NCBI GenBank assembly: GCA_902793405.1
Contig: CADBDH010000003.1
Span: 92,525-156,524 of the forward strand
Length of the DNA: 64,000 nucleotides
Source: an uncultured Bacteroidales bacterium
Lineage (GTDB): Bacteria > Bacteroidota > Bacteroidia > Bacteroidales > Muribaculaceae
Direction: 5' to 3'
How positions within the stretch are numbered: position 1 is the first letter of the stretch; each line of letters begins with the position of its first letter. Position numbers and translations under genes: made by a program. The notes below the pieces were generated by a model. That model ran no database searches, was not told the DNA's origin, and was given only the letters and a program-made list of their open reading frames with translations. Below are positions 27,950-36,407 of the stretch, piece after piece.

Positions 27950-28249
27950 ATGAGGATTGTATCTCATAGGAGGCTGGTTGAGTTTTACCAATCCGAGGGC
28001 CATGGGGATGCCCAAGCCGCCCTTGAGCGCTGGTATGATATTGCTTCTCGCGCTCAATGGCGCAATCTGGCTGAAATCAAGTTGGATTTCCCGGCAACGG
28101 ATTATGTGGGTAATCAGCACTATGTTTTTAATATCCGTGGTAACAAGTATCGTCTTGTGGTGGTCGTTAAATTCACGATCGGGCATCTGTTCATCCGATT
28201 TGTTGGCACTCATAGCGAATACGACAAGATTGATGCATCGACAATATAA
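27950..28249 (+). CDS. higB: HigB-type mRNA interferase toxin
   Basis: 99 residues of the HigB (RelE superfamily) toxin type: MRIVSHRRLVEFY at the start, RWYDIASRAQWRNLAEIK, a central NQHYVFNIRGNKYRLVVVV and a C-terminal FIRFVGTHSEYDKID. These fit the ribosome-dependent mRNA-cleaving HigB subgroup. It is the first gene of a toxin-before-antitoxin pair and is followed 11 bases later by higA. Confidence 0.9.
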   Translation: MRIVSHRRLVEFYQSEGHGDAQAALERWYDIASRAQWRNLAEIKLDFPATDYVGNQHYVFNIRGNKYRLVVVVKFTIGHLFIRFVGTHSEYDKIDASTI

Positions 28250-28260
28250 AAAGGTTAATT

Positions 28261-28620
28261 ATGGGAGTGACGAAGGAACAATATGAGTTTGCGTTACAGC
28301 GCATCGAGGAATTATTACCGTTGGTGGATGACACAACACCCGCAAGCGATAGGAATGCTGTGGAACTGACCATCATGTCTGATGCTGTGATTGCCTATGA
28401 AAATGAAAACTATCCCATGGGGAAGCCAACTGTTGCTCAACTGATTGAATTGTCTCTCGAGGAGATGCAGATGACCCAGAAGCAGCTGGCGCAGCAAGTG
28501 GGCGTGAGCCCGTCCCGCATCAGTGATTATGTCTCGGGACGTGCCGAGCCTACACTTAAAGTTGCCCGTCGTTTGTGTCAGACCCTCAACATATCACCAT
28601 CCATGATGATGGGAATATAA
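28261..28620 (+). CDS. higA: HigA-type antitoxin with XRE-type HTH
   Basis: 119 residues. The N-terminal half is a helical region seen in Bacteroidota HigA; the C-terminal half is a Cro/CI helix-turn-helix (MTQKQLAQQVGVSPSRISDY, then LKVARRLCQTLNI). It should neutralise HigB and repress the operon through the inverted repeat in the promoter. The methyltransferase gene starts 17 bases after its stop. Confidence 0.9.
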   Translation: MGVTKEQYEFALQRIEELLPLVDDTTPASDRNAVELTIMSDAVIAYENENYPMGKPTVAQLIELSLEEMQMTQKQLAQQVGVSPSRISDYVSGRAEPTLKVARRLCQTLNISPSMMMGI

Positions 28621-29510: not shown

Positions 29511-29538
29511 TTGGTATTCGTTTTTTTGTGTACTTTTG
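29511..29538 (+). promoter_or_regulatory. Promoter of metK
   Basis: TTG at 29511-29513 and TACTTTTG at 29531-29538, spacing 17 (slightly short). Predicted +1 near 29541, which places the whole riboswitch in the transcript. Confidence 0.6.
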
Positions 29539-29565
29539 CAGCCGATTTTAGAGTCAACGTATATT

Positions 29566-29616
29566 AACAGTGGAATTTGGGCTGCTTGCAACCACTTGAA
29601 AAAATGCTAAAATGCG
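29566..29616 (+). ncRNA. SAM-II riboswitch aptamer upstream of metK
   Basis: P1 is AGTGG (29569-29573) with CCACT (29592-29596). The 18-base loop reads AATTTGGGCTGCTTGCAA, with the AUUU and UUGCA blocks of SAM-II in the expected order, and the 3' strand carries the conserved GCTAAA (29606-29611) after an A-rich linker. SAM-II (RF00521) controls methionine and SAM genes in Alphaproteobacteria and Bacteroidota; the gene downstream is SAM synthetase, as expected. Confidence 0.85.
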
Positions 29617-29682
29617 ATTATCAACAACTGTGTTATTGATTTTCCTTTAGCATTCATTTTCCACAAAAATGAATGTTTTTTT
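29603..29682 (+). promoter_or_regulatory. Riboswitch expression platform: antiterminator and terminator
   Basis: Terminator: CATTCATTTT (29651-29660), loop CCACA, AAAATGAATG (29666-29675), then seven T (29676-29682). Competing pairing: AATGCTAAA (29603-29611), which includes the aptamer core GCTAAA, with TTTAGCATT (29646-29654), which overlaps the terminator 5' arm. SAM binding would hold GCTAAA in the aptamer and allow termination; without SAM the antiterminator forms. The metK ATG is eight bases past the T run. Confidence 0.85.
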
Positions 29683-29690
29683 GTAATACA

Positions 29691-30959
29691 ATGAAAAGTA
29701 AGAACAATTATTTATTCACGTCGGAGAGCGTGTCCGAGGGACATCCCGACAAAGTCGCCGACCAGATCAGTGACGCCATTCTGGACAAGTTCCTGGCCTT
29801 TGACCCCCATGCCCACGTGGCATGCGAGACCATGGTAACCACCGGCCAGGTGATTATTGCCGGCGAGGTGACCACCGATGTTTACATCGACCTGCAGCGC
29901 ACTGCACGCGAGATGATTCAGAAAATCGGCTATACCAAGAGCGAGTACCAGTTCGACGCCAACTCCTGCGGCATCCTCAACAGCGTGCATGAGCAGAGCG
30001 GCGACATCGCCCAGGGCGTGAACCGCGACGAGCAACACCAAGCCGACCAGGGTGCTGGCGACCAGGGCATGATGTTCGGTTTCGCCTGCAACGAGACGCC
30101 CAACTACATGCCGCTGACGCTGGACCTGGCTCACGCATTGATGCGAGAGCTGGCCGACATCCGTCACAACCACTTGGAATTGATGCCCTATCTGCGTCCT
30201 GACGCCAAGGCCCAGGTAACTGTGGAATATGACGGCGAGACGCGCCGCCCCGTGCATGTCGATACCATTGTGCTGAGCACCCAGCACGATGATGACGTGG
30301 ATCAGGATCGCATCGAGCAGGATGTGCGCAACATTCTCGTGCCCAGAACGCTGGAACACTTCGGTGCCGATATCCGTGCCATGGTCGATGCCGATACCGA
30401 TTACAAGGTCAACCCCACGGGCAAGTTCGTGATTGGCGGACCTCATGGCGACACCGGCCTCACGGGTCGCAAAATCATCGTGGACACCTATGGCGGACGC
30501 GGTGCCCATGGCGGCGGTGCCTTCAGCGGCAAGGATCCCAGCAAGGTGGACCGCAGCGCGGCCTATGCCTGCCGTCACATTGCCAAGAACGTCGTGGCTG
30601 CCGGTATTGCCGACGAGGTGCTCGTGCAGGTGGCCTATGCCATCGGCGTTGCCGAACCCGTGAGCTTCTACATCAACACCTATGGCACTAGCCATGTGAA
30701 CAAGAGCGATGTGGAGATTGCTGCTATCCTCAAGGACCTGTTTGACATGCGTCCCGCAGCCATCATCCGTGACCTGAAACTGCTCAACCCCATCTATACC
30801 GAGGCCGCTGCCTATGGTCACATGGGCCGCAAGTATGAACTCAAGGTCAAGAAGTTTGAGTCGCTCTACAACGAGACCAAGGAGGTGGAGGTAGAACTCT
30901 TCACCTGGGAGAAACTGAACCGCACCGAGGCCCTGCGCGCCGCCTTCGGTCTCTCGTAA
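29691..30959 (+). CDS. metK: S-adenosylmethionine synthetase
   Basis: 422 residues from ATG 29691; an upstream in-frame ATG at 29673 lies inside the terminator stem and is rejected. It makes SAM from methionine and ATP. Signatures: [36 protein letters not shown] and [28 protein letters not shown], which hold the ATP and metal sites. It has a typical extra segment of Bacteroidota MetK proteins. Regulation is by the SAM-II riboswitch directly upstream. Confidence 0.98.
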
Positions 30960-32252: not shown

Positions 32253-32287
32253 TTTGCACCATGAATGGGAAAAAAGAGTTACCTTTG
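32253..32287 (+). promoter_or_regulatory. Promoter of the first dockerin-repeat paralog
   Basis: TACCTTTG at 32280-32287 with TTTG at 32253-32256, spacing 23 (long). The predicted +1 lies inside the longer frame beginning at 32265, which supports the ATG at 32343. Confidence 0.55.
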
Positions 32288-32342
32288 TCAAATTCTAGAC
32301 GTAGAACCTATCATTATTAACCAATTAATAACTTTCATTGCA

Positions 32343-34298
32343 ATGAGGAAAATCTTTACTTTATTAACCATGTGTATGCTGGCCAGTGCAGCCTGGGCAC
32401 TAGACATCGTCTTTGATGCCACCGTTGACGTGGGTACCGGCAGCTCAACCGCTGGTGAGTTCACGATTGTGAAAGATGGTATCACCGTTCACGTGGAGCA
32501 GGGTGTGGCCAATGGAACCCACTACCGCTTCTACAAGGGCAAGAAAGTGACCATTACGTCCGAGATTGGCCCAATGACGAGAATCGTCTTCGATTGCGTT
32601 GGTGCAGACAATGAACAGTATGGTTCTGGTGGTTTTACTTCTGAACCCGGTGACTATGCTCCTGATGGCAAGTTGGGTATCTGGGCCAATTCTGGTGCAG
32701 CCCAGGTTGTGTTTACAGCCACCAATTTCCAGGTGCGTGCCACCAAGATTACCGTTAGCGTGGGTGGCGATGTTGGCCTGATGGCTCCCCGCATCACTCC
32801 TGCCGCTGGCGAGTACCACAACGACGTTGAGGTGAGCATGGCATGCTCGACCCCTGGTGCAAAGATTTACTACACCACCAATGGCAACACTCCCACTACC
32901 GGTTCGACCCTCTACACTGCTCCCTTCTCGATTCCTTTCGAATTGGGCACGTCGGTTGTCGTAAAGGCTATCTCGGAGAAGGATGGCGAGGTGAGCAGCG
33001 TGGTTAACGCAACTTATGAGTTTACCGAGGCTCCCAGCTTTGGTTGGGGTGATATGTTCAATACCAATGACAATACCAGCGTAACGTTCACCTATCCCAG
33101 CACCGTGCTGTGGCAGTCCGGCTCGACCATGTATTGCAAGGATGAGACTGGTTTTGGTCTCGTTTATCAGAGCACGGGCCACACCTACCAGATTGGTGAT
33201 ATCATTCCTGCTGGCTTCGGCGGCTCCAAGACCACCTATAACGGCAAGCCTGAGTTGCAGGGTCCCAAGGGATTCCAAGCTGCTGCTGGCAATGTCCATG
33301 TAGATGCTGAGGTCATCACCCCCAGTCAGGTTGACGAGGCACATTGGGCACACTATGTGCTGCTCAAGGGCGTGGTTGCTGCACCTAGTGGTAACGGTGG
33401 CACGTTCACTGCTTCCGATGGCAGCAGCTGCACTTACTTCACCAACACCTTTGGCGTTACCGCTCCCACCGATGGAGATCCCCACGACGTATATGGCATC
33501 GTAGCCGCTTACCGTGATGTTTATCAGATCCTGCCCATCGAGTTCGACAAAGAGCCTGGTCCTGAGCCTCCCACGCCCGTTGTCAGCATCGATGAGCTGT
33601 ATGAACTCAACCAGGGCAAGTTGGGTATCTTCACCACTCCGCTGACCGCAATCTATCAGAATGGTCCTTACCTGTATGTGAAGGATGTTGAAGGCACCTA
33701 CAGCTTGTCTTACGGTACTGTTGCATACCAGGAATTTGCCAATGGCGACTACATTGATAATGCAGTTGCAAGTTGGACCGTCTATCGCAAGAACAAACAG
33801 ATTTCGCCTGCTGGTGACACCTTTGTCAAGGCTGGTCATGGCACCCCCGTCGATATTGAGATCATGCCCATCGAGGAGCTTGCTGCCGATATGATCTACT
33901 GGTATGTTGGCTTTGAGAATGTACAGATCGAGGCCGGTGATGCCGAATACATCTATACGATCACCGACGAGACCGGCAGCCTGAAAGCCTATGACAAGAA
34001 CTTCAAGGCCATGCCCGAGAACCTGACTGATGGTCTCTACTATGTTGAAGGTTTCTTAAGCATCGACAACGATGAGCTGGAGCTCTTCCCCATCCTGGTT
34101 AAAGCTGCCCGCGAGTATCCTAAGGGTGACGTGAATGGTGACTATGAGGTGAATATCGCTGACGTGAACTGCCTGATCGATGTCATCCTCGGTTCAAAGA
34201 CCGCCGAGATGTTTGAAGGCCGTGCCTATGTCAACGATGATGATGAGGTGAACATCGCCGACGTCAATGCAGTAATCGCAATCATCTTGGGTTTATAA
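32343..34298 (+). CDS. Secreted multidomain protein with dockerin-like tail (paralog 1)
   Basis: 651 residues with signal peptide MRKIFTLLTMCMLASAAWA. Order: a beta-rich N-terminal module (about 20-140, containing MTRIVFDCVG and ATNFQVRATKI), a chitobiase-C-like module (about 148-228, KIYYTTNGNTPTTGSTLYT), two OB-like modules (about 230-405 and 415-590; YQNGPYLYVKDVEG), and two dockerin-like loops (about 594-651, KGDVNGDYEVNIADVN and a second DDDEVNIADVN). No catalytic motif was recognised. Export by signal peptide is clear; a role in surface carbohydrate or protein binding is inference. The tandem paralog follows at 34464. Confidence 0.82.
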   Translation: MRKIFTLLTMCMLASAAWALDIVFDATVDVGTGSSTAGEFTIVKDGITVHVEQGVANGTHYRFYKGKKVTITSEIGPMTRIVFDCVGADNEQYGSGGFTSEPGDYAPDGKLGIWANSGAAQVVFTATNFQVRATKITVSVGGDVGLMAPRITPAAGEYHNDVEVSMACSTPGAKIYYTTNGNTPTTGSTLYTAPFSIPFELGTSVVVKAISEKDGEVSSVVNATYEFTEAPSFGWGDMFNTNDNTSVTFTYPSTVLWQSGSTMYCKDETGFGLVYQSTGHTYQIGDIIPAGFGGSKTTYNGKPELQGPKGFQAAAGNVHVDAEVITPSQVDEAHWAHYVLLKGVVAAPSGNGGTFTASDGSSCTYFTNTFGVTAPTDGDPHDVYGIVAAYRDVYQILPIEFDKEPGPEPPTPVVSIDELYELNQGKLGIFTTPLTAIYQNGPYLYVKDVEGTYSLSYGTVAYQEFANGDYIDNAVASWTVYRKNKQISPAGDTFVKAGHGTPVDIEIMPIEELAADMIYWYVGFENVQIEAGDAEYIYTITDETGSLKAYDKNFKAMPENLTDGLYYVEGFLSIDNDELELFPILVKAAREYPKGDVNGDYEVNIADVNCLIDVILGSKTAEMFEGRAYVNDDDEVNIADVNAVIAIILGL

Positions 34299-34463: not shown

Positions 34464-36407
34464 ATGAAAAAAGTATTATTCTCTTTGTTGATGCTCATGG
34501 CGGCCAGTGCCGCGTGGGCTGTTGATATTGTGTTTGATGCCACCGTCGATGTGGGAAACGGCAGCTCCACTGCCGGCGAGTTCTGTATCGAGAAGGATGG
34601 CGTCAGCATCTGTGCCGAGCAGGGCATGGCCAATGGTGTGCAATACCGCTTCTACAAGAACAAGAAAGTGGTCATCACGTCAACGATCGGTCCGATGACG
34701 AGAATTGTGTTCGAATGCGTCGGCTCCGGCAATGAACAATATGGCCCGGGCGGCTTCACTGCCGAGCCCGGCGATTATGCACCTATCGAGAGGCAAGGCA
34801 TTTGGATGGGTAATGCCGACATGGTTGAGTTCACAGCCACCAATTTCCAGGTGCGTGCCACCAAGATTATCGTGACCGTGGGCGCAGATGTCGGCCTGTT
34901 GCCGCCCAGCATCTATCCGGCCAGTGGCACTTACGATGCCCCCTTCGATGTAAGGATGAGTTGTTCCACTGTTGATGCCGCGATTTATTACACCACCGAC
35001 GGCTCAACTCCCACAACCGCCTCGACGCAGTATACCGCACCGTTCACCGTCACCCCTCCCTTGACCGTCAAGGCCATATCGGCCAAGGATGGAGAGGTCA
35101 GCGAGGTGGTAACTGCCCAATATGAGGTGGCTCCCAGTGTGTGCCTGGGCGATCTGGAAGTGCTTTCTGATAATGAGACGGTATTTCTTGATCACGAGGC
35201 TACCGTGCTCTACCAGTCGGGCAACACTATGTACCTCAGGGACGAGTGCGATGGCGTTTATGGTTACGGCATGGTTTATGGCAACACCAATCAGACGTAT
35301 CTCACTGGCGATATCATTCCGCCGGGATGGGGTGGTATCAAGATGACTTATGATGGCCGTCCCGAACTGACAAACCTCTCGGGCTTCAAGCCGGCCAGCC
35401 GCCACGAGGTGATTGAGCCTGAAGAGATTACTATTCCTATGGTGGGAGAGGAAACTTGGGCGCACTATGTGGTCCTTCGCGGTGTGCGCATTGACCAGGA
35501 GCGCCAAGTGGTCATTGACCAGCAGGGCCGTACCTGTCCCTATTTCCCGCAACTGAGCCAACAGGTTGATCCGGCAAGATTGTTCGATGTGGTTGCTATC
35601 GTAACGTCTTATCGCTCTAAATACCAGTTATTCATTATCGAAGAACAAACCATACCTCCCATGCCTCCTCCTGTGGTTTGCTGCCTGGAGGACTTATATA
35701 TGTTCAATCAAGGCCAGGTTGCGAAGTTTGAATGCCCCTTGACGGCAATCTATCAGAATGGAAGATATTTGTATGTGAAGGACTCTTGTGATGAGTATGG
35801 CTTGATTTATGGTGACAATGTAGGCGGTCCCTTTGAGAACGGCGACCAGATTGAGGGCTTAGCCAGCTGGACCTTATACAACGACTGCAAGCAGCTCACA
35901 AACTATGGCGAGTGGGAGAAAATAGGAGATACCGACCCCGTTGAGCCCGAGGTGATGCCCATTGAAGAGCTGTGTATCGAAATGGTTCACTGGTTTGTCA
36001 AGCTGGAGCATGTTAACCTTGCAGGAGATGATATCGAGCCCCTCATCGAAGATGAAACCGGCTCGGTGAAGATGTTCAACAGGTTCCAAATCGAGGCCAC
36101 CCAAGATGTCGATGGCGGAGGAAGATTTTACCCTGACGTTAACTGTGATTATGAGATCAACATCGCCGATGTCAATTGTATCATCGAATTGATCCTGAAA
36201 GGCGAGACCACCCACGAGTGGGTCGGTGGTGACGGTACCTGCGATGTCATTGGCTTTGTGGCCGTGTATCGGGGGCAGATAGAAATCATTCCCATCCAGA
36301 TTGTTGAACATGGCGGCAGGTACGTCCTGATAGGTGACGTGAATGACGACGGCGAGGTCAACATCGGCGATGTGAACTATATCATCAACCTCATTCTCTC
36401 GGACTGA
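34464..36407 (+). CDS. Secreted multidomain protein with split dockerin-like repeats (paralog 2)
   Basis: 647 residues with signal peptide MKKVLFSLLMLMAASAAWA. Same module order as paralog 1: N-terminal module (MTRIVFECVG, ATNFQVRATKI), chitobiase-C-like module (IYYTTDGSTPTTASTQYT), then OB-like modules (YQNGRYLYVKDSCDEYG). The two dockerin loops are not adjacent: the first (DVNCDYEINIADVN) sits about 45 residues before the second (GDVNDDGEVNIGDVN), and between them lies CDVIGFVAVYRGQIEIIPIQ, which looks like the last strands of the OB-like module. The product resembles a module interrupted by an inserted dockerin loop. Function unknown. Confidence 0.8.
   Translation: MKKVLFSLLMLMAASAAWAVDIVFDATVDVGNGSSTAGEFCIEKDGVSICAEQGMANGVQYRFYKNKKVVITSTIGPMTRIVFECVGSGNEQYGPGGFTAEPGDYAPIERQGIWMGNADMVEFTATNFQVRATKIIVTVGADVGLLPPSIYPASGTYDAPFDVRMSCSTVDAAIYYTTDGSTPTTASTQYTAPFTVTPPLTVKAISAKDGEVSEVVTAQYEVAPSVCLGDLEVLSDNETVFLDHEATVLYQSGNTMYLRDECDGVYGYGMVYGNTNQTYLTGDIIPPGWGGIKMTYDGRPELTNLSGFKPASRHEVIEPEEITIPMVGEETWAHYVVLRGVRIDQERQVVIDQQGRTCPYFPQLSQQVDPARLFDVVAIVTSYRSKYQLFIIEEQTIPPMPPPVVCCLEDLYMFNQGQVAKFECPLTAIYQNGRYLYVKDSCDEYGLIYGDNVGGPFENGDQIEGLASWTLYNDCKQLTNYGEWEKIGDTDPVEPEVMPIEELCIEMVHWFVKLEHVNLAGDDIEPLIEDETGSVKMFNRFQIEATQDVDGGGRFYPDVNCDYEINIADVNCIIELILKGETTHEWVGGDGTCDVIGFVAVYRGQIEIIPIQIVEHGGRYVLIGDVNDDGEVNIGDVNYIINLILSD

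Follow-up and report, generated by a model that had tools for sequence, protein, structure and literature searches.

The window, that is, the whole stretch of 64,000 nucleotides that was analysed, carries on its forward strand the metK gene for S-adenosylmethionine synthetase (29691-30959, stop codon included). The three S-AdoMet synthetase domains found in its open reading frame (PF00438, PF02772 and PF02773) bear out the choice of metK as target gene made in a first-pass annotation of this DNA. The two nearest named relatives of this metK, at 84% identity, come from metagenome genomes, namely RUG13812 (Bacteroidales) and a Muribaculaceae genome from roe deer abomasum, which makes an uncultured member of the Muribaculaceae living in a ruminant gut the probable source. 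An in-frame ATG at 29673 was tried as the start of metK and rejected; it sits in the 3' arm of the terminator described below and, because its frame is not conserved in the related leader L137, the ATG at 29691 is taken as the start codon. The gene preceding metK encodes a SpoU methylase, and directly upstream of it a likely toxin-antitoxin pair (27950-28617) is made up of a HigB-type toxin gene (PF09907) and, next after it, a helix-turn-helix gene. On the other side, the protein encoded at 32265-34295 combines domains of the chitobiase C-terminal, Fn3-associated and dockerin types, and an ORF that follows at 34464 resembles it as judged by eye. Upstream of metK and its aptamer lies a putative promoter element, TACTTTTG (29531-29538, forward strand), of the type TAnnTTTG, which we take to be the Bacteroidetes promoter consensus. 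This type recurs within the 55 nt upstream of the first aptamer stem, P1, in 82/92 metK leaders of the genus, compared with 2/92 in a control stretch of 55 nt that lies farther upstream. No -33 element could be established upstream of 29531-29538, where TTG triplets stand at spacers of 17 and 25.

At 29564-29620 on the forward strand, upstream of this methionine/SAM gene, the leader matches the covariance model RF01726 (SAM-II long loop) in cmscan with 45.9 bits and an E of 1.4e-5, a score that barely exceeds the cut-off of 44. The family named in the first-pass annotation had been RF00521, which reaches 24.6 bits in this leader against a cut-off of 36 and, being below threshold, is ruled out as the aptamer family; the assignment to the SAM-II class nevertheless stands because the sister family RF01726 passes. 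Within the match, the P1 stem is made of five pairs between AGTGG (29569-29573) and CCACT (29592-29596), both strands being given by direct reading and by the RF01726 alignment, and the conserved core GCTAAA (29606-29611) is common to the aptamer and the antiterminator. The strand TTTGG (29576-29580) is complementary to CTAAA (29607-29611; UUUGG/CUAAA in the RNA) and is possibly the loop strand of the P2 pseudoknot, an assignment that we presume from the SAM-II class. Next to it, at 29581, stands an extra G that is absent from most relatives, and with this G and a shortened or altered loop strand the aptamer of the window is a low-scoring form. Of the 95 genus matches to RF01726, 74 lie at 51.1-67.7 bits, one lies at 30.4, and the other 20, to which the 45.9 of the window belongs, lie at 43.7-48.1. 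The place of the window in the lower group, together with the extra G and the altered loop strand, would be in keeping with a decaying or re-specialised aptamer, that is, a low-scoring subclade that binds SAM poorly and whose terminator is constitutive or answers to another ligand. This is judged very improbable, given that the TTTGGGC form of the loop strand (TTTGGGCTGC) is shared by 18/93 genus leaders, that metK lies downstream and that the core and its downstream complement, the anti-core, are matched. A short-leader variant with a different altered aptamer (GTGGGGATTTGTGCTGC) is seen in L133 and L139, which have 54 nt to the ATG and are devoid of the anti-core strand.

Downstream of the aptamer lies the switch strand TTTAGCATTCATTTTCCAC (29646-29664, forward strand), delimited by direct reading, comparison with relatives and folding. 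Its positions 29646-29654 pair with the core, 29659-29664 pair with the P1 5' strand at 29570-29575, and 29651-29660 form the 5' arm of the terminator. In the first of these pairings, antiterminator helix A, the strand AATGCTAAA (29603-29611, forward strand) forms nine Watson-Crick pairs with TTTAGCATT (29646-29654), as given by direct reading and folding, which confirms the 9-bp antiterminator proposed earlier. In the second, helix B, GTGGAA (29570-29575, forward strand), which overlaps P1, pairs with TTCCAC (29659-29664) according to folding and to a permutation test. Between the strands of helix A, a small hairpin (29620-29640, forward strand) is present in both minimum-energy folds at transcript end 29682. 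The candidate intrinsic terminator (29651-29682, forward strand), backed by reading, folding and shuffles, consists of a 10-pair stem, with no more than 2 G-C pairs, between CATTCATTTT (29651-29660) and AAAATGAATG (29666-29675), closed by a CCACA loop and followed by U7 (29676-29682). The energy of this stem is about -6.9 kcal/mol, and -9.6 for 29649-29677. The antiterminator shares 29606-29611 with the aptamer and 29651-29654 with the terminator. The first-pass annotation had held that the leader could be read base by base, with an antiterminator sharing bases with both neighbours and a U7 terminator ending eight bases before the ATG; direct reading agrees on P1, the core, the antiterminator and the terminator alike, the T7 ending at 29682 and the ATG starting at 29691. 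A generic terminator scan listed no site at 29651-29682, the 2 G-C pairs of the stem falling short of the minimum of 3 in its rule. Chance was assessed on 20,000 dinucleotide shuffles of 29612-29690, none of which had both elements overlapping (0/20,000); a 9-nt complement of the core region arose in 158 of them, and a hairpin of at least 8 pairs with a U tract in 23. Taken as a whole, the leader folds with an unremarkable energy (z -0.59, with 48/200 shuffles folding at least as well), a measure that was set aside as evidence.

The exchange between these helices was computed by comparing free and aptamer-imposed ensembles with energies at 37 °C, in a model that leaves the pseudoknot out and in which bound SAM is represented by forcing P1 and barring the remaining aptamer from pairing. 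For the transcript ending at 29682, the free ensemble gives a probability of 0.11 for the terminator, 0.79 for helix A, 0.87 for helix B and 0.09 for P1, and imposing the aptamer brings the terminator to 0.98. The OFF logic that had been put forward for this leader, in which a formed aptamer leads to the terminator, is thus predicted by ensemble folding. When the transcript end moves from 29662 to 29668, P1 falls from 0.90 to 0.03 while helix B climbs to 0.96; therefore, the computed antiterminator is bipartite for the window sequence, and the switch strand looks, in the folding model, as if it also takes the P1 5' strand. Accordingly, the antiterminator of the first-pass annotation holds in its core/anti-core half and was incomplete, its second half being the pairing with the P1 5' strand indicated by folding and permutations.

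Attenuation by mutually exclusive helices is supported by the covariance search, the ensemble folding and the comparison with relatives, and repression of metK through transcription attenuation by a riboswitch of the SAM-II (long loop) type is considered the probable explanation of this leader. The aptamer match, the competing helices and their recurrence in relatives are computed results; from them we infer SAM binding and termination at the metK leader in the cell. In the absence of SAM, the switch strand (29646-29664) would invade two parts of the aptamer, pairing through its first half with the core strand AATGCTAAA and through its last six bases with GTGGAA. This invasion would remove P1 and the pseudoknot strand and would hold the 5' arm of the terminator, allowing the polymerase to read through. 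In the presence of SAM, both aptamer strands would be kept in P1 and the pseudoknot, the switch strand would pair with AAAATGAATG instead, and the polymerase would halt in U7, eight bases before the start of metK, switching the gene off.

The same aptamer is widespread in related genomes. RF01726 has one match in the window's own genome and is present in 95/101 genus genomes (48/48 of those of good quality), 188/198 sampled family genomes and 165/247 sampled order genomes. The comparison set was built from all 95 genus matches, from family loci comprising the best-scoring ones and 16 picked by hand, and from the 30 best-scoring order loci, the family and order loci being therefore non-random samples. 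L126 was dropped for a miscalled start that left a leader of 0 nt, and L127 and L130 because the core motif was not found (2 of the 168 loci examined); in the 166/166 leaders with the core motif, the MetK N-terminal motif follows within 700 nt downstream. The first-pass annotation had suggested comparing the helices across related metK leaders, and in this comparison core and anti-core stay matched: at a weighted score of at least 18, with G-U allowed, the core/anti-core helix is found in 80/89 distinct genus leaders compared with 2.1% of shuffles, as well as in 7/35 family leaders and 0/28 order leaders. The consensus of the switch strand in the genus is TTTAGCRTT(CAT)TTTTCCAC or near it, and CCAC occurs at most 14 nt after the anti-core in 78/86 genus leaders, compared with 15% of all 14-nt windows. 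For helix B, the pairing of each leader with its own strand beats all 5000 permutations over 85 genus leaders and likewise over 51 distinct combinations, it being understood that shuffles and permutations leave shared ancestry in. In L136 and L138 the switch strand CTATCCA matches the P1 5' strand TGGATAG, both sides having changed together, which supports helix B. In the free state, averaged over the genus, the P1 5' strand pairs with downstream bases no more than shuffles do (e.g., 0.35 vs 0.44 in the 12 Tv leaders), and the idea that helix B generally marks the free ensemble was not borne out. At the order level, the leaders L059-L088 have no anti-core strand. A 5-mer complementary to the aptamer GATTG, mostly CAATC, occurs in 17/28 distinct order leaders, compared with 4.3 expected from shuffles, and is perhaps a different anti-aptamer strand.

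In 39/92 genus leaders (class S), the switch strand uses its second half to pair with the region of the start codon. The terminator of the window would be built on a strand that in many congeners pairs around the start codon. Among leaders ending in GGA(n)TG, to which the count is confined, the run lengths of T(n)CCA and GGA(n)TG are equal in 37/37 genus leaders and in 45/47 genus and family leaders taken together; in 10,000 permutations, the number of equal pairs averaged 25.7 and never exceeded 36. L053 and L089 end in this way but are without T(n)CCA. Beyond the genus, start-sequestering leaders amount to 12/42 in the family and 0/30 in the order. When the aptamer is imposed, the mean start accessibility of class S drops from 0.40 to 0.19. 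Compared with shuffles, in an analysis that omitted L065, L066, L079, L126 and L152, the shift in start accessibility ranks in the top 2 of 31 in 29/38 leaders of class S, 3/13 of class O, 1/10 of class A, 0/15 of class G, 0/15 of class T and 5/27 order leaders.

The other output is represented by class T, 15 leaders including that of the window, in which a T tract comes after a hairpin that draws on the switch strand. The probability of this hairpin goes from at most 0.5 in the free ensemble to at least 0.8 with the aptamer imposed in 11/15 leaders; L096, L131, L141 and L149 show no clean change, their computed switch being weak or missing. As judged by eye, 14/15 stems share one register (L141 being the exception) and both-sided pair changes affect 3/10 positions: A-U to G-C in L149, U-A to G-C in L096, L150 and L094, and A-U to U-A in L094. 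TTCCAC is kept in 15/15 class T leaders, wholly or partly within the loop. A looser scan found terminator-like hairpins in 20/92 genus, 12/42 family and 1/30 order leaders, the 20 in the genus being the 15 of class T, the unrelated hairpins of L038 and L120, and those of L125, L136 and L151, which lie upstream of the switch strand.

The existence of class S bears on the possibility that control in the window is translational only, a hairpin before the start (either the terminator stem or ACAAAAA/TTTTTGT, 29663-29684 on the forward strand) blocking ribosomes and the T tract being a stem arm. This would be consistent with the sequestering of the start region by the same switch strand in 39/92 genus leaders, with a U tract that ends 8 nt from the ATG, and with the presence of ACAAAAA/TTTTTGT in the minimum-energy fold of the whole leader and of similar arms in relatives. 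It is nonetheless regarded as unlikely: imposing the aptamer shifts start accessibility beyond shuffles in 0/15 class T leaders; ACAAAAA/TTTTTGT has a probability of 0.11-0.12 in the free ensemble and 0.0 with the aptamer imposed, a change opposite to that expected of an OFF switch; and L131, L137, L143 and L147 keep the stem and the U tract with a start hairpin that is weak or missing. Somewhat better placed, albeit still tentative, is a combination that overlaps with the attenuation model, in which most transcripts would be terminated and initiation would be reduced on those that escape. A ribosome at the start codon covers enough of the messenger for the terminator to fall, by geometry, within its expected footprint. 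Dual SAM-II behaviour is moreover reported for Sinorhizobium metA and metZ in passages of PMC9373788; against a combined control, start accessibility in the terminator-type leaders is without computed change.

The history of the attenuator was approached with a quick metK tree (99 rows, 489 columns), which places all 15 class T leaders in a single 39-row branch (SH-aLRT 96) that is free of class S leaders and does not include L038 and L120. The branch mixes terminator, A/T-hairpin and other forms, and the notion that every one of its leaders terminates is contradicted by classes A and G. In class A (10 leaders), nine have a T6-T7 tract and a hairpin probability of at most 0.36, and one has no T5 tract; in class G (15 leaders), 10 have no T5 tract, L142 and L151 have a tract and no hairpin, and L101, L102 and L122 join a T5 tract to a hairpin at 0.84-0.85. 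In L025, L048, L057, L093, L125, L132, L136, L138 and L140, the T6-T7 tract ends 6 nt before the ATG. These nine leaders share the tree branch and the place of the tract with the terminators, have no strong hairpin (at most 0.36), and in them the tract perhaps serves as a stem arm or is what remains of a terminator. Because class S is also found in 12/42 family leaders and class T is confined to the 39-row branch, comparison of the leaders suggests that the terminator form is a derived output, a direction that cannot be given by the tree counts themselves; counter to it, 12/42 family leaders, as well as L038 and L120, carry other terminator-like hairpins. Within the branch, more than one gain or loss of the terminator, or an exchange of leaders, seems likely, the number of gains being unsettled because the tree is quick and 34/96 of its inner branches are open.

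A further proposal, whose chances we consider evenly balanced, is that a single switch strand complementary to two separate parts of the aptamer acts as an exchangeable adaptor, so that the output of metK would have been swapped, possibly repeatedly in the 39-row branch, with sensor and adaptor being kept. In one and the same genus of Muribaculaceae type, the second half of the strand would pair either with GGA(n)TG, a look-alike of the P1 5' strand located at the start, turning translation off, or with the terminator arm, turning transcription off.

SAM-II riboswitches with terminators are already in print. A table entry in Weinberg et al. 2010 (PMC2864571) classes RF01726 as a cis-regulatory switch that occurs in Bacteroidetes and in marine sequences; the aptamer of the window belongs to this family, over its cut-off, as a low-scoring form with an extra G, and the main-text passages of that paper give no switch mechanism. 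For the SAM-II/metA element RF00521, which the window leader matches with 24.6 bits against 36, passages of Corbino et al. 2005 (PMC1273637) describe many members in which a putative intrinsic terminator lies downstream of P2 and ahead of the gene, interpreted as an OFF switch, and list a member from Bacteroides thetaiotaomicron; the OFF logic is alike, but the description given there is without the bipartite switch strand of the window leader. In Sinorhizobium meliloti, according to passages of Scheuer et al. 2022 (PMC9373788), SAM is predicted to permit a Rho-independent terminator at metZ, where a small RNA of fitting size is commoner at high SAM, and the SAM-II element of metA exerts translational control. 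As in the metK leaders, two outputs are thus obtained from one aptamer class; the S. meliloti case concerns two genes of one alphaproteobacterium, whereas in the metK leaders congeners differ at one orthologous gene on one recurrent strand. In the survey by Barrick and Breaker 2007 (PMC2258182), SAM-II is described as the only aptamer that, in alpha- and betaproteobacteria, appears to occur mostly together with terminators, and as also found in Bacteroidetes; the main text, in which the word 'metK' is absent, does not treat the metK leaders of this Bacteroidales group. No description of the metK expression platform of this group was found among titles, abstract openings and passages of the open literature; loci of this kind may be contained in the supplements of TaRTLEt (PMC12121620), which drew on Bacteroides data.

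The metK leader therefore joins a seemingly derived expression platform to a sensor of a known riboswitch class. A change of riboswitch output with the sensor kept is hard to see in distant comparisons, and here one genus holds both forms of the metK leader on a shared switch strand with length-matched arms. This provides short constructs in which it can be tested which changes convert a translational switch into a transcriptional one, and puts on record a probable feedback control of metK by SAM in a group of gut Bacteroidales.
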